Part shown: one piece after another, positions 14,335 through 23,189 of the stretch
Numbering within the stretch: the first letter of the stretch is position 1
How the letters are laid out: each line of letters opens with the position of its first letter
Assembly: GCA_919902505.1 (NCBI GenBank)
Contig: CAKKRE010000016.1
Span: forward strand, 186,001 to 250,000
DNA length: 64,000 nucleotides
From: Nitrospiraceae bacterium
GTDB lineage: Bacteria; Nitrospirota; Nitrospiria; Nitrospirales; Nitrospiraceae
Direction of reading: 5' to 3'
The notes under the pieces: generated by a model
Told to the model about the DNA's origin: nothing
What the model saw: the letters and a program-made list of their open reading frames with translations, nothing else
Databases searched by the model: none
Position numbers and translations under genes: made by a program

Positions 14335-14394
14335 GGCTTACAACTTGTCGGATGAGACACAATTGCATACACTCCACATCAACGAGGTATGACG

Positions 14395-14661
14395 ATGACA
14401 AGAACCATGTCGCTCAAGCAGGCCCGGTCCCGATTCTCCTCCTTGGTGGACAATGCCGATCGTTTGTCCGAACGGGTAATCGTGACAAAAAATGGAACCC
14501 CTAAAGCGGTGGTCATGGGGGCGGAAGAATTTGAAAGCTGGGTTGAAACGTTGGAGCTGCTCTCAAATCCCAAAGCAGTCAAGGCTCTTGAGCAGGGGCT
14601 CAAAGAAGCCAAAGCAGGAAAACTTCGTTCGTTCAAGGACGTGTTCGGCGAAAAGCAGTGA
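14395..14661 (+). CDS. Phd/YefM-type antitoxin
   Basis: The ATG at 14395 lies 7 nt after GAGG; an earlier ATG at 14389 is too close to it. The 88-aa product begins MTRTMSLKQARSRFSSLVD and contains VIVTKNGTPKAVVMGAEEFES, the DNA-binding fold of Phd/YefM antitoxins. The C-terminal tail (KAVKALEQGLKEAKAGKLRS) would bind the toxin. Its stop TGA overlaps the GTG of the downstream toxin gene, the standard type II operon layout. The antitoxin appears intact although the toxin is not. Confidence 0.88.
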   Translation: MTRTMSLKQARSRFSSLVDNADRLSERVIVTKNGTPKAVVMGAEEFESWVETLELLSNPKAVKALEQGLKEAKAGKLRSFKDVFGEKQ

Positions 14662-15055: not shown

Positions 15056-15451
15056 ATGGATACACGCTCGATCACACAGTTTCTCAACGAGCAGATCCCC
15101 GATCTGTTGGCCATCTACCAATTCGGCTCACAGGCCCAGGGCACCGCGCGGCCGGACAGCGACATCGATGTGGCTGTCCTGAGCGTCCACCCGATCCCCG
15201 GTGAGCAGATCTTTCATCTGGCACAGGAGCTAGCCATCCACCTTCATCGCGACGTCGACCTTGTGGACTTGCGTAGCGCTTCGACGGTGATGCGCATGCA
15301 GGTCCTCACAACGGGACAGTGCCTGGACACAAAGCACCTTCAAGCAAAGGCCGAGTTTGAAATGTACACCTACGCCGACTATGCGAGACTCAACGAGGAG
15401 CGGCGGGAGTTGGTGAAGGGCATCAAAGCGCGCGGACTTGTCTATGGCTGA
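15056..15451 (+). CDS. mntA: MntA-type nucleotidyltransferase antitoxin
   Basis: The 131-aa protein has the minimal nucleotidyltransferase motif G24-S25-x10-D36-x-D38 (FGSQAQGTARPDSDIDVAV), followed by a third acidic site in VDLVDLRS. In the type VII toxin-antitoxin family, MntA adenylylates the HepT toxin on a tyrosine near its active site. The 3' end overlaps the hepT start by 8 nt, the usual operon order. Confidence 0.85.
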   Translation: MDTRSITQFLNEQIPDLLAIYQFGSQAQGTARPDSDIDVAVLSVHPIPGEQIFHLAQELAIHLHRDVDLVDLRSASTVMRMQVLTTGQCLDTKHLQAKAEFEMYTYADYARLNEERRELVKGIKARGLVYG

Positions 15452-15857
15452 TGATGTGATCCTCAACAAGGCCGCGAGCATCGAACGGTGCCTGCACCGC
15501 ATCACCGAAGAATTTGCGGGAGACCGGCAAAACCTGGCCGCGAATCAAACCAAACAAGACGCCATCGTTCTCAACCTGCAGCGAGCCTGCGAGACCGCGA
15601 TCGATCTCGCCATGTATGTGATCAGCCAGCGACGACTCGGTCTTCCCCAAGAAAGTCGCGACGCCTTTGCGCTGCTCGAAACCGCAGGAATTCTTCCAAC
15701 CAACTTGACCACCCGCATGCAACGCATGGTCGGCTTCCGCAACGTGGCCGTGCGCGAATATATCCGCCTCAATCTCGATATCGTCCTCACAATCATCACG
15801 AAACATTTGGAAGACTTCCGCCGGTTCTCCTCGGCCATCGTCAAAGCCTGCGCGTAA
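15444..15857 (+). CDS. hepT: HepT-like ribonuclease toxin with altered active-site motif
   Basis: The ATG at 15444 overlaps the end of mntA; a TTG 6 nt earlier is less likely. The 137-aa, mostly helical protein matches HepT (DUF86). HepT ribonucleases use an R-x4-H-x-Y motif. Here the corresponding block is GFRNVAVREY, so R99 and Y106 are kept but the histidine is arginine (R104, codon CGC at 15752-15754). One A-to-G change from CAC would explain it. The protein may lack RNase activity while keeping the tyrosine that MntA modifies. It could instead be a natural variant. Confidence 0.8.
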   Translation: MADDVILNKAASIERCLHRITEEFAGDRQNLAANQTKQDAIVLNLQRACETAIDLAMYVISQRRLGLPQESRDAFALLETAGILPTNLTTRMQRMVGFRNVAVREYIRLNLDIVLTIITKHLEDFRRFSSAIVKACA

Positions 15858-16075: not shown

Positions 16076-16282
16076 ATGGGCGCACCATCACTCAAACACA
16101 AGCATTTGGTGCTGGATCAGCGAAAGATCAACGCAGCCAAACGTTATTTCGGAGTTCAATCCGAACAGGAGGCCGTCGACAAAGCCCTCTCACTTCTAGT
16201 GGAAGAACAGCGCCTCAACAAGGCCTTGAAACCATTGAAGGGAGTCCTGAAAGGGGACAACCGGCCGTGGCCCTACCGATAG
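16076..16282 (+). CDS. vapB: VapB-type antitoxin
   Basis: ATGs at 16055 and 16064 lie in or next to the operator. The ATG at 16076 has GGAGG 5 nt upstream and gives a 68-aa protein (MGAPSLKHKHLVLDQRKINA). The region KRYFGVQSEQEAVDKALSLLVEEQ is a ribbon-helix-helix DNA-binding segment, and the C-terminal tail (LKGVLKGDNRPWPYR) would occupy the toxin. It overlaps vapC by 16 nt. Confidence 0.82.
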   Translation: MGAPSLKHKHLVLDQRKINAAKRYFGVQSEQEAVDKALSLLVEEQRLNKALKPLKGVLKGDNRPWPYR

Positions 16283-16701
16283 GAGGGAAAGTCCTTCTCG
16301 ACACCAACGTGCTGATCGATTACTTGCGAGCCGGACTGCACGCCGAATGGGTATTGGGTGGTGGTGGCAGCATTGTCCGCTTCATTTCCGCGGTCGTCCT
16401 CTTGGAACTACGCCTCGGCGCAGACACACCTAAGCGCAAGAGAGCAGTTGACCGACTCCAGCAGGCATTTCATTCCGGACGCATGCTCGGTCTCACTCCA
16501 CCTCTCATGGATCATGCCGGACGGATCTTCCGAGCCCTCTATGGGAATGCAGCGGGAATGGGCGATCGCTTGGGTCCACTCAACGATGTGCTGATCGCGC
16601 TCACCGCGAGGCAAATCGGAGCCGCCGTCGTGACGAGCAATGTCATGGAATTTCGGCGCATTGCGGCGAAGGTGCCCGGCCTCAGAATCGTGGTTCCGTA
16701 A
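16267..16701 (+). CDS. vapC: VapC-type PIN-domain ribonuclease toxin
   Basis: It starts at GTG 16267 inside the end of vapB, with AGGGG 9 nt upstream. The 144-aa PIN domain has acidic residues D12 (LLDTNVLIDYL), E47 (VLLELRLG) and D107 (GPLNDVLIAL). The fourth position, usually D in TxNxxDF, is E128 (VTSNVMEF). VapC enzymes cut RNA, typically tRNA, when released from VapB. The Asp-to-Glu change is conservative, so activity is plausible. Confidence 0.85.
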   Translation: MALPIGGKVLLDTNVLIDYLRAGLHAEWVLGGGGSIVRFISAVVLLELRLGADTPKRKRAVDRLQQAFHSGRMLGLTPPLMDHAGRIFRALYGNAAGMGDRLGPLNDVLIALTARQIGAAVVTSNVMEFRRIAAKVPGLRIVVP

Positions 16702-16760: not shown

Positions 16761-18068
16761 TCACAGTTTCAAGAGCTCCTTCACCGGCACCGCTGCATCG
16801 AGACGCGCCTCACAGGCGGCCACGCCTTCGCGTCGAAGCACTTCAGGAATGCGTTCACCTTCAGACAGGAGCATAAACGCCAGCCGCCCAATGGATTCGT
16901 CTGTGAGGCTGAAGAGATGCTGCAGGAACTCGACGTTCAGCTGCGACTGATGGACGGGCCAGATAGCCCTCCGAGTACGCACCAGGAATCCGTTCAGGCG
17001 ATCATGGTACTCAGCAGGATCGAGCGGACAGACATACACAGCCTGCTCCATGCCTCCCTCAGCGAGCGACACAACATCCCAGGGATGCTCCACCAGAACC
17101 ACTGAGGGGAATGTTTCGAAGCCCGTTGAGACGCTGGGCGAAGAAAAGACCAGGCGTTCTACTCGACGGGGTTGCAGAAGTCGAAAGCCGTAGGGCAAGC
17201 AGGATGAAGTGTTGCCAAGCTCAGCCGTCTCCCCCACAATCTGTTCATAGAACCCGCAGCAACGGCCCTGCCGGTCACGCACCGGCACCAAGATGGAACG
17301 ATCCGTTTCACCATTCCGCACCAGGTCTCCCTTGCAATCCAGCCATCCGGTCACCCCGGCATCGTCGAGTTGCTGAGCGTCGAAACCGGCTGCCAACAAG
17401 CTGTCCACAAGCCGACGACCGACGGCGGAAGACATCACACCGAGAGCGAAGCGCTCGATCGTGGCTTCGGTGATCCCCTGCCGCTCCAGCCAGGCGAGGG
17501 CTGACTGTCCCTCACAATCCTCGACAAGGCTATTGTGGGCCAATTCAGCCGTGGCCTCCATCATGCGTCGCAGCGCTTTCAACCACGGCCTCTTTCCTTG
17601 CAACTGTCCCACATCCAACAGTTCCCTCACCTGCCGAACCGATTCCGACAGGCTGAGCCCCTCCATGCGCCCATAGAAATCCAAAGCATGACCACCCGCA
17701 AGGCAGTCGGTGCAGAAATAGGAATCGTCACGCGCATCGACCAGAAGCGAATTGGGCCCATGTCGGCAGAACGGACAAGGGCCCTTGCCGCTATTCGAGT
17801 GATCGCCGGATCGAATGAGCGGGGTATATCGTCCGATCAATTCGACGCCATCCAAGTCGTCGAGCAGGTTCTCCCACTGTTCGACGATTGAGAGGTCCGA
17901 AATGGAGCCAACCGGACTCGGCTCAGTTTTGCCCGGCGCAGGCGGGAACGCTGGGAAGGCTTGATTGAAGCGGAACCTTCGATAAAGGCCGGCCGGCCCA
18001 TCAGTCGACAATACTGAGCTGCCCCCAACCGCCGCCAAGATCTTGAACAACACCCTCCTCGTGAACAT
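16761..18068 (-). CDS. Primase-like protein with Tat-type signal (zinc ribbon + degenerate TOPRIM), copy 1
   Basis: The 435-aa protein starts 6 nt after GGAGGG. Residues 1-20 (MFTRRVLFKILAAVGGSSVL) form a twin-arginine signal: T-R-R-x-L-F-K followed by a hydrophobic stretch. Residues 98-122 hold C98-P-F-C101 and C119-x2-C122, like the CHC2 zinc finger of DnaG but with all-Cys ligands. Residues about 150-290 resemble the DnaG N-terminal core (ITEATIERFALG; DRSILVPVRDRQGRCCGF). About 320-350 matches the TOPRIM first strand (VVLVEHPWDVVSLAEGGMEQAVY), but the DxD motif is missing. It is therefore unlikely to be an active primase. It is a paralogue of 20720-21991; palindrome TGTGAC-N7-GTCACA is upstream. 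Confidence 0.7.
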   Translation of the reverse strand: MFTRRVLFKILAAVGGSSVLSTDGPAGLYRRFRFNQAFPAFPPAPGKTEPSPVGSISDLSIVEQWENLLDDLDGVELIGRYTPLIRSGDHSNSGKGPCPFCRHGPNSLLVDARDDSYFCTDCLAGGHALDFYGRMEGLSLSESVRQVRELLDVGQLQGKRPWLKALRRMMEATAELAHNSLVEDCEGQSALAWLERQGITEATIERFALGVMSSAVGRRLVDSLLAAGFDAQQLDDAGVTGWLDCKGDLVRNGETDRSILVPVRDRQGRCCGFYEQIVGETAELGNTSSCLPYGFRLLQPRRVERLVFSSPSVSTGFETFPSVVLVEHPWDVVSLAEGGMEQAVYVCPLDPAEYHDRLNGFLVRTRRAIWPVHQSQLNVEFLQHLFSLTDESIGRLAFMLLSEGERIPEVLRREGVAACEARLDAAVPVKELLKL

Positions 18069-18135
18069 GACTTTCCCTCCTGCGATCGCAGTGAACGATC
18101 TTTGATTCCGAATAATGGAAAGCTTATGACGAGGG

Positions 18136-18154
18136 TGTGACAGAGAAGGTCACA
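18136..18154 (-). promoter_or_regulatory. Shared palindrome TGTGAC-N7-GTCACA, site 1
   Basis: On the minus strand it reads TGTGACCTTCTCTGTCACA and lies 67 nt upstream of the copy-1 primase-like gene. Conservation with site 2 continues towards the gene to a TTTCC block (18115-18119). Likely an operator or activator site; the protein that binds it is unknown. Confidence 0.6.
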
Positions 18155-18208
18155 AGAGGACGGGGGGCAAGCTATATTTTATTTGAAACAGCCAGTGCAG
18201 CGAACGGA

Positions 18209-18439
18209 TCACCGACCGGATTGGTTTCCCGGGCCATCCCACATTTCCTCCAATTGCCGGCATCTTTCAAATCGCTCCATTATTGGAATCATTTCCATCA
18301 ATATTTCCGGCGTGAGATAGGCGAGATCGTTCGAGTCAGCCCCATCGTCCACGGAAATCCGCTTCTTCATATCGGCGATGAAACGCTCGTCAATGACAAA
18401 TTGCTTGCCGCGCCAGTTGGTGTAGATATAGCTACCCAT
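18209..18439 (-). CDS. Small hypothetical protein in primase-like island
   Basis: The ATG at 18439 has GGGGAGG 7 nt upstream and is preferred to the GTG at 18469. The 76-aa soluble product begins MGSYIYTNWRGKQFVIDERF, has a central acidic patch (VDDGADSND) and a helical C-terminal part (ILMEMIPIMERFERCRQLEEMW). I recognise no family. It sits 140 bp upstream of the copy-1 primase-like gene on the same strand and has its own copy of the shared palindrome 146 nt before its start, so it may belong to the same regulon. Confidence 0.55.
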   Translation of the reverse strand: MGSYIYTNWRGKQFVIDERFIADMKKRISVDDGADSNDLAYLTPEILMEMIPIMERFERCRQLEEMWDGPGNQSGR

Positions 18440-18585
18440 CGAAAGACCTCCCCTCAACCTGAGGTTCACTCCCGGGGTCGATCGTCGCAGAACGCGAGAT
18501 TCCCGACCACGCGCACCGCGGACCGTCCCAGCTTTGTTGTCACGGATAGAGATTCAGAATGACCGAGGAAAGCCTACTACGGGGA

Positions 18586-18604
18586 TGTGACAGAAAAGGT
18601 CACA
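18586..18604 (-). promoter_or_regulatory. Shared palindrome TGTGAC-N7-GTCACA, site 2
   Basis: On the minus strand it reads TGTGACCTTTTCTGTCACA, one base different from site 1. The block towards the gene (CCCCGTAGTAGGCTTTCC) also matches site 1 (CCCTCGTCATAAGCTTTCC). It lies 146 nt upstream of the 76-aa gene. Confidence 0.6.
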
Positions 18605-18998
18605 GCACCCAAGACTATCTCGGATCGTAATTGCTCTTGTTGGCGACACAGGCCATCGCGCATAGCATTTGGTCGAGGCCACAGAAAACCGAGGGCAAGG
18701 CTGTCTCAAGGAACATCGAGGGGAATATTCAGAAGGACAGGAAATCATTTACCGTCAGTTCGTTCATGTAGATGGCGGCATTAAATCGAAATTTCTTAAT
18801 GAGCGACAATCGCACAGTCCCTTTTTCCCAGTAGCGGGCCACAGGGGCAAACCACAATCACCATCTATATTTGAACACTATGCGTCTCGCGCACATGGCT
18901 TTGCTTAATCGTAGTTCAGCGGACTTTTGCGAGATCGAAAAAGGCGTTCTAAGAACATGACGAAGCCGGTCACGAACGGATAGGTTACCTGAGAAACA
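18605..18998. other. AT-richer non-coding gap
   Basis: No frame with a good start site or family resemblance is visible on either strand. Base composition is more AT-rich than the window average. A weak relative of the shared palindrome (TGAC-N7-GTCAC, 18958-18973) lies near the 3' end of the next leftward gene. It may be a remnant of older island DNA. Confidence 0.4.
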
Positions 18999-19637
18999 CT
19001 ACGGGAAGCTTAACTGCAGATCCCGCGCAAGAACTTCCTTAAATTGACTCGCAGTGCGAAGCATCGCCTCCTTATTTGACAGATCCGAAAGATCGAATTG
19101 GGCACCACAGATTGATACACCAATTTTTTCGATCGTAACGACATTCCAGTCCGATGGATACTTAGGTAGATAGTTGATCGCTGGACGCCAAACACTTTCT
19201 TGCCAGTTCCGCCTCTCATCTATATCACTCTTGAACGCATAGATCCCAAGACGCGAGAAAGAGTCTTCCGCAACCGGGAAATCTAAGGGATTTGGCTCAC
19301 CCTTTTTCCAACTAATGCCGTCGGGGTAACCGGTATCCGAAACGAGGTGAATGGCCAACAACCATTCCCCTTTCTTCGTCTGATTTTGATCAGTAGAGAG
19401 AGAAAGAAACAAGAAGCTGACACGGTACATTGGAAGCATGTCCCAGACCCACTTATCAAATGGATTCACTGTAGTCGGCCTGTTGAATCCATAGACCGCG
19501 GAATACGGTCGAAGGCCCATTTCATTAGCGAATGTCTTGGAGAAATCTAAAATTCGCCTTTGATACAAAAACAACAAACGAAAAGCTTTTCTGACATCAA
19601 CCAAAGCCAGCTTGAGTTCATCACTATGAGACTCCAT
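18999..19637 (-). CDS. Hypothetical protein, partner of nuclease candidate
   Basis: The frame opens at 19745, but the ATG at 19637 follows AGGAAGGA and overlaps the upstream gene by 14 nt, which suggests coupling. The 212-aa product (MESHSDELKLALVDVRKAFR start) is soluble, with an N-terminal helix and a central region rich in Trp and aromatic residues (PFDKWVWDMLPMYRVSFLF). No family is recognised. The AT-richer codon use, shared with the 19624-20397 gene, suggests both arrived together by transfer. Confidence 0.55.
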   Translation of the reverse strand: MESHSDELKLALVDVRKAFRLLFLYQRRILDFSKTFANEMGLRPYSAVYGFNRPTTVNPFDKWVWDMLPMYRVSFLFLSLSTDQNQTKKGEWLLAIHLVSDTGYPDGISWKKGEPNPLDFPVAEDSFSRLGIYAFKSDIDERRNWQESVWRPAINYLPKYPSDWNVVTIEKIGVSICGAQFDLSDLSNKEAMLRTASQFKEVLARDLQLSFP

Positions 19638-20397
19638 TAGAAATCCTTCCTGCAAACTGTTCCAAACTTTCATCGCGAATCGAGGCGAAAGGCCTTGCTT
19701 CACGGCGCAAACTCTCCAACCAGGTAGGTTGTCGTGACTGGACATTGTACAATTGGAACGCCTCCAATATGTCGTTGATTACGGTCAAAATGTTCGCATC
19801 AATTGGGTGCGCAGATACAACCCTCTTCAATGCTTTGGCAATCAACTGCCATGAAGTTCCAACTAACTGCACTCGCGCTCCATCTCTGCCAAGGTTGCGC
19901 AGCGCCTCCTCAATTTGCCTACGAAAACCTATCACGCAATCATCGGTGACTTCCTCTAACCCACTCACCATCATCAACCACATTTGCCTTCCTTCAATCT
20001 CTTCGTTATATCCAAGCCACTCCAGCGCCAGCTGTTGGGCATCTTGAGAACGCTGGCCATCATTGAGCTTTGCTTCCACCGCAATATCTATTTTTTCGAA
20101 AGATAAAAAAACATCGGGTATGCATCTCATTCTATCGCTTGTTGCCTGGGAGATGTCCCAAGTAGGCCAAAACTCAGACGCTCTGAGGTTTCCTACATGC
20201 ATCGGCAAACTTCCTACTGGAATTGCGGCTTCGGACAAAACCTTCCAGAAAAGATTAGCCGGAAGATATCGTAAGCGCTCAAATACAGCCGCCGTCAGGA
20301 AATCTTCAAGGGTTCGAAACCGCTCCTTAAAACTTTCTCCCTCCGCCCCCTTTTCAAACAACATTCCAATTTTTCCATGCAAAATTGCTTGAAGCAT
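19624..20397 (-). CDS. PD-(D/E)XK nuclease-like hypothetical protein
   Basis: This 257-aa protein has P94-D95 (CIPDVFLSF) and E108-A-K110 (IDIAVEAKLNDGQ), the spacing and context of a PD-(D/E)XK nuclease core, followed by a helix with Gln residues (DAQQLALEWLGY). An N-terminal Glu (about E40, TAAVFERLRYL) could complete the active site. The family therefore probably cleaves DNA, but this is a motif-based inference. It overlaps the 212-aa gene and follows the 79-aa and primase-like genes in the same direction. Its GC content is visibly lower than the neighbours. Confidence 0.55.
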   Translation of the reverse strand: MLQAILHGKIGMLFEKGAEGESFKERFRTLEDFLTAAVFERLRYLPANLFWKVLSEAAIPVGSLPMHVGNLRASEFWPTWDISQATSDRMRCIPDVFLSFEKIDIAVEAKLNDGQRSQDAQQLALEWLGYNEEIEGRQMWLMMVSGLEEVTDDCVIGFRRQIEEALRNLGRDGARVQLVGTSWQLIAKALKRVVSAHPIDANILTVINDILEAFQLYNVQSRQPTWLESLRREARPFASIRDESLEQFAGRISNGVS

Positions 20398-20458
20398 TTA
20401 GGCACTCCCCCCATGCGATTCATCTCTAAAGCATTACTCAATTCATATCTATCAAACG

Positions 20459-20698
20459 TCATGGCCTCACACCGCACCGCAATAGCACAGACCTCCGTAA
20501 TCTGTCGATGGCATTTAGCCGAGCAATCGCGTCATCAATACTATTTACCCGCTCGAACTCCGGCCTCGCCTCGTCGAACTCCTTGCGGCAACTGATCTGC
20601 TCCTGAATGACCTGCGCCAGGGATTTGTTCAGAGTCACCTGCATGAGTGAATCGGCAGGAATCACGATCTGTAAAATGATCGGCAACAGCCATTCCAT
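20459..20698 (-). CDS. Small hypothetical protein between primase-like and nuclease-like genes
   Basis: The ATG at 20698 follows AAGGGAA at 9 nt. The 79-aa product has a hydrophobic N-terminus (MEWLLPIILQIVIPADSLM) that could be a membrane anchor, followed by a charged helical part (QEQISCRKEFDEARPEFERV). It starts 21 bp after the stop of the copy-2 primase-like gene, so it is likely in the same transcript. No family is recognised, and it is not visibly similar to the 76-aa protein. Confidence 0.5.
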   Translation of the reverse strand: MEWLLPIILQIVIPADSLMQVTLNKSLAQVIQEQISCRKEFDEARPEFERVNSIDDAIARLNAIDRLRRSVLLRCGVRP

Positions 20699-20719
20699 GA
20701 CAACATTCCCTTCTAGACC

Positions 20720-21991
20720 TCACGCCTCCAGCCACTGATGAAACGGGATAGCCTGACTCATCGCCTTGCGTACCGCCTGAGGGCCGCTCGCCTGCAGCAA
20801 TGCGAGAAGCCCGCCCTTGGACGGCACGGACATGACGCGAAGTGGCCGCCCTTCACGTTCGAGCACTTCAATAAGGCGCAAGGCCGTCACCGACCTTCGC
20901 CCCTTGGGGTCGACGCAACAAATCAAGTCTTGGCCGAGAGACAGCAGCGTCCGAAGACGAACGGGATCGGTCGCGCAGTCAAACAGATAGACGGCATTCT
21001 CGATACCGGCATTGTGCAAGGCGACGACCTCCCAGGGTGTCTCCGTAATCAACACTTTCTGGTGCCGGTTGAATTCCTGCGGCCAGGCGGGATGGGGAAA
21101 GATGAGTCTGCGCAGCCGGCGCTCCGAAACGGCCAAGGTGTCCTGCGTCCATCCTGCCTGCAGAGAGTCCTGCCGCGAGGTGAGCCTGCGTTTCATGAAT
21201 CCCCAGCTACGCCCTGCCTGATCGCAAATTGGAATGAGCAGGTGGCCGCCGCCATATCGATCGATCAGCTTTTCCTCACCCGCTTCGTTCACCCGAACCG
21301 TTTGCAGGAGCTTGGGAATCACATACCCTTCCGCCACCAAGTGGCGGCTTAAGAGATCATCCGGATCGTGCGGGGCATACCCAAGCCGAAACCGTTCGAT
21401 CGTGGACGGCGCGATCCCTTGTTCGGCCAGACACTCCCGAGCCACTGCCCCTTCCGGTCTTACGCACAGCAAGGCATGGTAGAAGCGCGCCGCCTCCTCC
21501 AACATTCTGTACGCATGTTCGTTTTCACGACGACGCCCCTTGAGCACCCCGTCTGTCAACAGCGCATCAAGGCGCGCCGCCGCCACCTCATGCGGCAGTC
21601 CTTCAGCTCTGGCGTAACACTCAATCGCGGATCCCTCAGCCTCGCACCACCTGCAGCGAAAAGATTCCGGCCCCACGCGAAAACCAGCCTCACCACAAAA
21701 CGGGCAATGGGAACTCCCCCGGATCAGATTGATCTCGGCTGAACAGGTCATGCTTCGCGCCGAAGCCACGTACGCGACTACCTCAATACAGTCCAAGTCA
21801 TCTTTGAGGTTTTCGAACCATTCGCTCTCCAGGAGCGATCTTTCTGGCTGTGAGGAAAAAATTTCAGAAGGCGGATTCCGCCCCGGCCGCAACTCCATTG
21901 CTGCACCACTGGCGGACCGGTCAAGCCATGGCGCGAACGTACCCAGCCCAAGTGTGACGGCGAACTTGAAGAGATTTCGTCTCGTCAGCAT
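20720..21991 (-). CDS. Primase-like protein with Tat-type signal (zinc ribbon + degenerate TOPRIM), copy 2
   Basis: The 423-aa protein starts 4-6 nt after GGGGGAGGG. Residues 1-31 are a full Tat-type signal: T-R-R-N-L-F-K, a hydrophobic region FAVTLGLGTFAPWL and a possible A-x-A type site near SASGAA. A zinc ribbon follows (C96-P-F-C99, C113-x2-C116). The middle has the DnaG core blocks IAPSTIERFRLGYAPHD and LLIPICDQAGRSWGFMKR, then a TOPRIM-like strand (VLITETPWEVVALHNAGIENAVY) and a second strand CVDPKGRRSV where DnaG has DGDxAG. Catalytic acids are therefore largely lost. It shares ENLKDDLDCIEVV with copy 1 (ENLLDDLDGVELI). It heads a leftward run of four genes and has palindrome site 3 upstream. 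Confidence 0.7.
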   Translation of the reverse strand: MLTRRNLFKFAVTLGLGTFAPWLDRSASGAAMELRPGRNPPSEIFSSQPERSLLESEWFENLKDDLDCIEVVAYVASARSMTCSAEINLIRGSSHCPFCGEAGFRVGPESFRCRWCEAEGSAIECYARAEGLPHEVAAARLDALLTDGVLKGRRRENEHAYRMLEEAARFYHALLCVRPEGAVARECLAEQGIAPSTIERFRLGYAPHDPDDLLSRHLVAEGYVIPKLLQTVRVNEAGEEKLIDRYGGGHLLIPICDQAGRSWGFMKRRLTSRQDSLQAGWTQDTLAVSERRLRRLIFPHPAWPQEFNRHQKVLITETPWEVVALHNAGIENAVYLFDCATDPVRLRTLLSLGQDLICCVDPKGRRSVTALRLIEVLEREGRPLRVMSVPSKGGLLALLQASGPQAVRKAMSQAIPFHQWLEA

Positions 21992-22037
21992 GACACCCTC
22001 CCCCCGACAATTTGATGGGGGAAAACTAACAGGCAGA

Positions 22038-22056
22038 CGTGACAGAGAATGTCACA
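22038..22056 (-). promoter_or_regulatory. Shared palindrome GTGAC-N7-GTCAC, site 3
   Basis: On the minus strand it reads TGTGACATTCTCTGTCACG, 47 nt before the copy-2 primase-like gene. A TTTTCC block follows at the same relative position as in sites 1 and 2. It lies between that gene and the WYL regulator gene. Confidence 0.6.
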
Positions 22057-22154: not shown

Positions 22155-23150
22155 CTAGCGATAGCGCTCTAGGGCGCGAGCTAAGTGAGAGGTGACAGCA
22201 TCAACCAGCGCTTGAGGTTCCAACACTCTCGCCGCCGGCCCCCAGGAGAGAACCCAGGAGGCAAGTTCATCCATTCCGCCTGCGGTAATGGTGGCGATCA
22301 CGGAGCCGTCTTTTTGAATTTCGTTCTCCTGACTCGGATGCCAGCGGCGCTCCTTCACCAGATAAGCGACATCCGGGGCGAACTGGATGCGGACAGTTTG
22401 AGCCGGTTCATCGACCAAGCCGAACAGGTTGTTATAGATCTGCTCCACCTGTAATTCTTCGGGCAGACTGAACCGCTCCTCAAGAACTTCAACCGAGACT
22501 ACCCGCTCCACCGCGAACATGCGCAAGGCCTCGGCCCGGTGCGAATAGCCGACCAGATACAACCCAAACTGGTACAGCAACAGCAGATAGGGATCGACAC
22601 GATGTTCCGTCGACTCCTCGTAATCCGGCCTGCGATGCTCAAGGACGACGGTGCACTGCAGGAGTAACGCCTTCTGGAGTTGCTGGAGAACAACCTTCTG
22701 TCCCGCATAGTCCCGCACCGGCCCGGAGCGAGGCAGAAACACCTGATTGATGCGCGCCAGGTGATTGAACACCCTGTGCGATAAGCCGCCCTCGACTTTC
22801 TCGATGAGACTGTCGAGATCATCGACAAACGGTGTGCCCGCCAAATAGTCGAGATGGCGCTTGGCAAAATGCAACGCCATGAGTTCATAGGGAGACACCG
22901 TAATCGGCGGGAGGCCCTTGTAGCCCAGCGGCAGGTGCCAGGTCTTTTCCCCATCACCGTCCGATTGCTCCAGAGGATGTCCTTCTTCATGGATTCGATC
23001 CAGATCGCGATAGACCTGCCGCTTCGTCACCTCGAAGGCTTCGGCCAGATCCTTAACCGTCATCGACCGACTCGCCAGTGCGCGCAACATGCGAGCAAGC
23101 CGGTCGGCCTGGCTATAGGCTTTGGGACGTCGTCCTCTTTGTGCTGCCAT
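22155..23150 (-). CDS. HTH-WYL transcriptional regulator
   Basis: The frame starts with GTG at 23174, but the ATG at 23150 with AAGGGGGGAGG before it is better (331 aa). Residues 15-70 form a DeoR/HTH_11-type winged helix (MTVKDLAEAFEVTKRQVYRDLDRI). Residues about 140-215 are a WYL domain (VVLEHRRPDYEESTEHRVDPYLLLLYQFGLYLVGY), and a WCX-type C-terminal region follows. Proteins of this kind bind ligands, often nucleic acid or nucleotides, and frequently control defence loci. It is 164 bp upstream of the copy-2 primase-like gene in the same direction and is a candidate binder of the shared palindrome. Confidence 0.85.
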   Translation of the reverse strand: MAAQRGRRPKAYSQADRLARMLRALASRSMTVKDLAEAFEVTKRQVYRDLDRIHEEGHPLEQSDGDGEKTWHLPLGYKGLPPITVSPYELMALHFAKRHLDYLAGTPFVDDLDSLIEKVEGGLSHRVFNHLARINQVFLPRSGPVRDYAGQKVVLQQLQKALLLQCTVVLEHRRPDYEESTEHRVDPYLLLLYQFGLYLVGYSHRAEALRMFAVERVVSVEVLEERFSLPEELQVEQIYNNLFGLVDEPAQTVRIQFAPDVAYLVKERRWHPSQENEIQKDGSVIATITAGGMDELASWVLSWGPAARVLEPQALVDAVTSHLARALERYR

Positions 23151-23189
23151 CCTCCCCCCTTCTTTGCCTCTCACTGCGTCAACGAACGG

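Follow-up and report, generated by a model that had tools for sequence, protein, structure and literature searches.

The stretch analyzed here (the window: 64,000 nucleotides [nt], positions 186,001 to 250,000 of contig CAKKRE010000016.1, part of a 4.24-Mb Nitrospiraceae genome in 84 contigs) encodes two paralogous proteins, A and B, each of which very probably bears, judging from its sequence, a twin-arginine translocation (Tat)-type signal on a DnaG primase-like body that almost certainly does not prime. We call these proteins Tat-DnaG. The best overall explanation, itself an even call, is that they are the constant parts, Tat-targeted and noncatalytic, of a defense-type chromosomal locus of Nitrospira and its relatives that exchanges its cargo and would be inducible by DNA damage or phages. 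Primase-fold proteins are known as cytoplasmic replication enzymes, and we know of no primase-like protein that acts at the cell envelope; if true, a primase fold would have been reused outside the cytoplasm, its active site lost and an export signal gained under purifying selection.

The N-terminal signal and the family that carries it

Both open reading frames (ORFs; Table 1) are intact, begin with MLTRRNLFK (A) and MFTRRVLFK (B), and lie immediately downstream of GGAGGG-type ribosome sites, just as a sequence-only reading of the window had described them (T-R-R-x-L-F-K plus a hydrophobic run behind strong ribosome sites). Relatives were sought in 61 near relatives and then by a profile search over 396 Nitrospirota genomes. 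Most of the near relatives have the housekeeping DnaG alone; some species of the genus have members that match over residues 1 to 433, and a genome from another family (G044) has one that aligns from its first residue. The profile search added members from other genera (G133, G245, G278, and G342) and fragments (G012, G181, and G309). The family set used below consists of 18 aligned full-length sequences, the decayed copies being additional.

Every full-length homologue has the N-terminal segment. R4 and R5 are invariant in all 18 sequences from several genera and K9 is present in 17, with variants MLTRR, MFTRR, MLNRR, and MVSRR across the family; distant members display the textbook Tat form (MLNRRNFLK, MLNRRTFIK, MLNRRSFIK, and MVSRRTFFK), such that the family as a whole shows (S/T/N)RRx(F/L)(L/F/I)K followed by a hydrophobic region. 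The arginine pair persists despite differing codons (AGA, AGG, CGA, CGC, CGG, and CGT), which bears out the earlier claim that the conserved N-terminus is not a chance start site; a miscalled start codon was likewise rejected, the ribosome site, promoter, and N-terminus being conserved jointly and the codons varying synonymously. Housekeeping DnaGs align to the family model only from about position 55, and the N-terminal segment is therefore specific to the family. When the first 60 residues alone are searched, the G245 member exceeds the cutoff of the Pfam TAT_signal model (PF10518; 23.4 versus 22.7 bits), three other members remain below it at 15.8 to 16.4 bits, and four members of the family match TIGR01409 weakly. 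The host genome has two TatC genes.

Selection on these proteins is three-part. Pairwise ratios of nonsynonymous to synonymous substitution (dN/dS) are low for alignment columns 1 to 22 (e.g., 0.068/0.588), near 1 for columns 23 to 62 (e.g., 0.489/0.530), and low again across the DnaG part (e.g., 0.109/0.716): the signal is constrained, the linker of ~40 amino acids (aa) is near neutral, and the DnaG region is constrained. Such a combination of conserved signal, free linker, and conserved domain would be expected of a signal for export or tethering. The Tat motif could also be real and serve as an anchor or timing device, with the folded protein docking at the inner membrane and acting on its cytoplasmic side, or with export failing when the proton motive force collapses during infection, so that cytoplasmic buildup acts as a sensor of depolarization. 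The length and near-neutral evolution of the linker, the several free cysteines in the sequence of B (unusual for a periplasmic protein), the want of a clear AxA cleavage site in some members, and the cytoplasmic nature of cargo and regulator all agree with such a device; most members, however, have AxA-like sites around residues 26 to 31, and no precedent was found, and we hold it to be unlikely.

In a phylogenetic tree, the Tat-DnaG proteins are monophyletic with respect to 28 housekeeping DnaGs, which rules out ordinary primase duplicates; the seven B sequences form a single clade (support of 1.0). Phage and plasmid primases were also rejected as relatives (matches are about 22 to 27% identical and cover the DnaG part only), and a search of viral contigs returned no relative. 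Members were found only in Nitrospirota, the phylum whose genomes the profile search covered, and a contig scan with a single-protein query, which reaches close relatives only, gave a Nitrospira metagenome-assembled genome (VOPT01000011) alone. Degraded copies in G012, G017, G022, G025, G181, and G309 are what would be expected of decaying primases from former mobile elements, with accidental N-termini, carried as passengers of a variable region. This explanation was already disfavored and is very improbable: the signal and the DnaG part are under purifying selection, the monophyletic family has invariant residues of its own, and dedicated promoters precede Tat-DnaG in all genera.

A DnaG fold with a degraded active site

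A and B share 31% identity. B matches PF01807 (2.6e-9) and PF08275 (8.6e-6), A matches PF08275 (1.2e-9) and, weakly, Toprim_4, and both match TIGR01391 dnaG (2e-20 for B and 7e-24 for A) at 72.9 and 84.4 bits, respectively, short of its equivalog cutoff of 283.6 bits. The open frames end after the TOPRIM region (about 425 to 435 aa, versus about 640 aa for DnaG), and the C-terminal helicase-interaction (DnaB-binding) domain is absent; the host genome also encodes a housekeeping DnaG in a 643-aa open frame. DnaG RNA-polymerase domains are the top structural matches of AlphaFold2 models of both proteins (predicted local distance difference test scores of 79.0 for A and 74.0 for B): against 3b39, A aligns with Z 24.0 (root mean square deviation of 2.8 over 254 residues) and B with Z 21.4 (3.0 over 254 residues), and 1d0q is a further match for the zinc ribbon of B when that domain is compared (Z 12.1). 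The models thus indicate that a DnaG fold with an N-terminal zinc ribbon is retained, in keeping with the zinc ribbon and DnaG-like core first recognized from the letters.

In a comparison with 28 DnaGs, the host's among them, only 19 of 120 DnaG-conserved positions persist in 80% or more of the family. The CHC2 histidine is replaced by cysteine in 18 of 18 sequences, leaving an invariant four-Cys zinc ribbon. The claim that the TOPRIM acids are largely lost stood for the second and third motifs (the paired D residues of DGDxAG persist in 7 and 1 of 18, and those of DPD in 1 and 0) and failed for the first: in the EGYMD box, E is kept in 13 sequences and the fifth position is acidic (D or E) in all 18, and VEHPWD is this very motif, with both acids kept. 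The DnaG metal site made up of EGYxD, DGDxAG, and DPD is therefore not complete in the family. Also gone are the template- and nucleotide-binding residues GGR and PKYLNSPET; the host's housekeeping DnaG retains these and all TOPRIM metal motifs. With DGDxAG, DPD, and the template- and nucleotide-binding residues lost, priming is very unlikely, and the earlier suggestion of a noncatalytic role is upheld.

A predicted activator, promoters, and exchangeable cargo

The best indications of what the Tat-DnaG proteins serve come from a WYL regulator, from promoters at the locus, and from the cargo that separates A and B. The regulator, predicted to activate the locus, has DriD as its best PDB matches in phmmer searches (8tp8/9pfq; 5e-17, nearly full length), followed by PafC (5.6e-9) and PafBC. 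Its orthologues occur in 12 of the 61 near relatives, and Tat-DnaG, in intact or decayed form, is present in 11 of these; the other 49 have neither (Fisher 2.9e-11, a value that overstates significance because the genomes share descent and are not independent). In G036, the WYL protein occurs without Tat-DnaG and adjoins a DUF2779-like gene. A tested DUF2779 gene (L042:1928-3439) lies near a WYL regulator of this family, and an ORF resembling it by look (L099:4253-5767) lies near a WYL regulator without Tat-DnaG.

A, B, and the 76-aa ORF are each preceded by GTGAC-N7-GTCAC, in full GTGAC-N7-GTCAC-N10-TANNNT. The strict pattern, GTGACNTTNTCTGTCAC, occurs three times in the host genome, each time at the Tat-DnaG locus; among 31 genomes, 14 of 15 matches are at the locus, and a reversed-pattern control gave zero matches. 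The lone off-locus match (G047) was rejected as a promoter, as it falls within an ORF and seems fortuitous. TANNNT follows at exactly 10 nt in 26 of 31 sites across genera (next-best spacing, 3 sites; spacings of 4 to 17 nt considered), so that an operator, with the WYL protein as its predicted binder, overlaps the −35 region at a fixed distance from TANNNT. The DriD site ATACGAC-N7-GTCGTAT likewise overlaps −35 and keeps a constant spacing to −10, and single-stranded DNA (ssDNA) in the WYL domain of DriD activates it (PMC12340889); the motif associated with PafBC is tTGTCRgtg-8 nt-TannnT (PMC5656591), and PafBC, too, is activated by ssDNA (PMC11804915). Because both the homology of the WYL protein and the promoter layout match DriD and PafBC, an ssDNA-activated activator is predicted, the ssDNA itself from homology only, and we think it likely that the locus is under DriD-type control.

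Within the genus, the Tat-DnaG genes occupy one chromosomal site between what we take to be uvrA/N-acetyltransferase and RNase Z-like genes. There the WYL gene comes first, followed by A, the 79-aa ORF, the variable cargo, in many cases a 76-aa ORF (YTNWRG), and finally B; in G342, G278, and G044, the WYL and Tat-DnaG pair is located elsewhere. Neither small ORF has a Pfam match. The cargo, named in part after candidate models of PADLOC (PDC-M15, S02, and similar), includes PDC-M15A and PDC-M15B (the window, G013, G017, and G342), Mrr-type nucleases (PDC-S02/Mrr_cat; G022 and G278), GmrSD_N (G007), a weak UDG match (G133), PDDEXK_4 with DUF2779 (G044), and a SEC-C protein (G025); Tat-DnaG is thus co-located with defense-type genes (M15A/B, S02/Mrr, GmrSD_N, and PDDEXK_4). 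A literature search on PDC-M15 returned nothing relevant. Tat-DnaG copies are frequently truncated or lost, which suggests turnover, and we lean slightly toward a defense role for the locus.

The same regulator and promoters would also suit a DNA damage checkpoint or toxin at the envelope, in the manner of DidA under DriD in Caulobacter, in which a damage-induced, membrane-targeted protein halts growth without a specific antiphage role; the hydrophobic N-terminus of the 79-aa ORF beside A fits as well. We consider this improbable, given that nuclease- or defense-type cargo, differing between genomes, separates the paralogues, and that a patchy distribution with repeated decay suits defense better than a housekeeping checkpoint.

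A nucleotidyltransferase and HepT-like pair (MntA/HepT type) lies beside B, and the same variable region also encodes a Phd/YefM antitoxin along with a PIN-domain protein. A tyrosinase-like protein with a Tat-like PSRRSFLQ motif recurs in that chromosomal interval in several Nitrospira genomes.

Table 1. Coordinates of the Tat-DnaG genes, their control elements, and other genes (window positions unless prefixed by a genome or locus handle)
Feature	Position	Strand	Details
Tat-DnaG paralogue A (P0002)	20720..21991	(-)	423 aa; signal and linker, then C4 zinc ribbon and DnaG-type core with degenerate TOPRIM
Tat-DnaG paralogue B (P0001)	16761..18068	(-)	435 aa; architecture as A; separate clade within genus
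Putative Tat-type signal of A, residues 1-22	21926..21991	(-)	MLTRRNLFKFAVTLGLGTFAPW; invariant RR, codon variation, dN/dS
Putative Tat-type signal of B, residues 1-22	18003..18068	(-)	MFTRRVLFKILAAVGGSSVLST; invariant RR, codon variation, dN/dS
WYL regulator, predicted activator	22155..23174	(-)	HTH-WYL-WCX; Pfam WCX/WYL/HTH_11
Promoter of A	22023..22055	(-)	GTGACATTCTCTGTCAC-N10-TAGTTT
Promoter of 76-aa ORF	18571..18603	(-)	GTGACCTTTTCTGTCAC-N10-TAGGCT
Promoter of B	18121..18153	(-)	GTGACCTTCTCTGTCAC-N10-TAAGCT
79-aa conserved ORF	20459..20698	(-)	follows A directly; N-terminus with hydrophobic stretch (MEWLLPIILQIV...); kept across genera
76-aa conserved ORF	18209..18439	(-)	YIYTNWRGKQF...; own promoter; travels with locus across genera
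PDC-M15A candidate defense protein (cargo)	19624..20397	(-)	PADLOC 6.8e-38
PDC-M15B candidate defense protein (cargo)	18999..19745, likely start near 19637	(-)	PADLOC 1.8e-43
Nucleotidyltransferase and HepT-like pair	15056-15857	(+)	PF18765/PF01909 5e-18 and 6e-8; PF01934 4e-27
PIN-domain protein	16267-16701	(+)
Phd/YefM antitoxin	14389-14661	(+)
TatC genes of host	G000:C16:358151-358822; G000:C23:99024-99641
Tyrosinase-like copies	L035:14456-15892; L039:4929-6365; L040:3328-4764; L041:12541-13977		L035 Pfam-tested; others with N-terminus as L035

A possible mechanism and its relation to known systems

Under the explanation we prefer, cytoplasmic ssDNA arising from DNA damage or phage replication would activate the DriD-like WYL protein, which would turn on the GTGAC-N7-GTCAC-N10-TANNNT promoters of the Tat-DnaG genes and the small conserved ORF, and Tat-DnaG and cargo would then be produced. 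A Tat signal and a flexible ~40-aa linker on a nonpriming DnaG fold make it probable that Tat-DnaG would be exported in folded, zinc-bearing form to the inner membrane, on its periplasmic face, and there cleaved or tethered; the variable products of the genes between A and B would be cytoplasmic nucleases or defense candidates. The likeliest task of Tat-DnaG would then be envelope-side binding, of nucleic acid or of a phage or partner protein, complementing the cytoplasmic cargo; binding of nucleic acid there is a tentative proposal. Given the swappable DNA-cutting genes and the promoters shaped like those of DNA damage activators, the Tat-DnaG proteins may serve antivirus defense at the envelope. 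More speculatively, the locus may represent a new class of inducible immunity in which dead primase-fold proteins, switched on by an ssDNA-sensing WYL activator in concert with swappable cytoplasmic nucleases, are exported by Tat and, at the periplasmic face of the inner membrane, capture phage proteins or nucleic acid that is entering or has been released.

Several points weigh against this interpretation, besides the free cysteines of B and the shared descent of the genomes compared. TAT_signal matches neither A nor B, in Pfam searches or with the first 60 residues, although the nearby PSRRSFLQ-motif protein also goes unmatched, and the miss is weak evidence because the model is insensitive here. 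The loss of DnaG template-contact residues makes binding of template, or of nucleic acid generally, by the core look doubtful. Several cargo genes match no defense model. Lastly, the WYL protein might be a repressor like BrxR, which acts through an 11-bp inverted repeat downstream of its promoter (PMC9122601); this is less likely, because the promoters at the Tat-DnaG locus lack a good −35 box and have the site in its place.

Nitrospira are key nitrifiers whose immunity has been little studied, and an exported primase fold under DriD-type promoters, joined with exchangeable nucleases, would offer a concrete, testable case linking the sensing of DNA damage to envelope-side and cytoplasmic responses. 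Tat-DnaG matches DnaG primase in domain order, fold, and zinc-ribbon position but adds a putative Tat-type signal and linker, has a C4 rather than a CHC2 ribbon, has lost two of three TOPRIM metal motifs along with basic substrate residues, and is without the DnaB-binding C-terminal domain. With DriD (Caulobacter) and PafBC (mycobacteria), the locus shares an HTH-WYL-WCX regulator and an N7-spaced palindrome over −35 at a fixed distance from TANNNT, and with the PafBC motif, an identical 10-nt gap from the GTCRG core to TANNNT; the half-site, however, is GTGAC rather than CGAC, and the regulon is restricted to the locus rather than genome-wide. As in BrxR and CapW islands, a WYL regulator adjoins changing defense genes, but here the constant genes are those for Tat-DnaG and the site overlaps −35, unlike the downstream BrxR repeat (PMC9122601). 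RTasDnaG-like proteins (PADLOC DRT, PDLC03800) likewise place a DnaG-like protein in a defense context (1e-8 to B and 0.006 to A), although the match is limited to the shared DnaG region and no reverse transcriptase was found at the Tat-DnaG locus. Literature searches for primases with Tat signals found nothing relevant, and the profile searches covered Nitrospirota genomes. The DnaG fold, the Tat signal, and the WYL activator are each known; no description of their combination was found in the sources searched.

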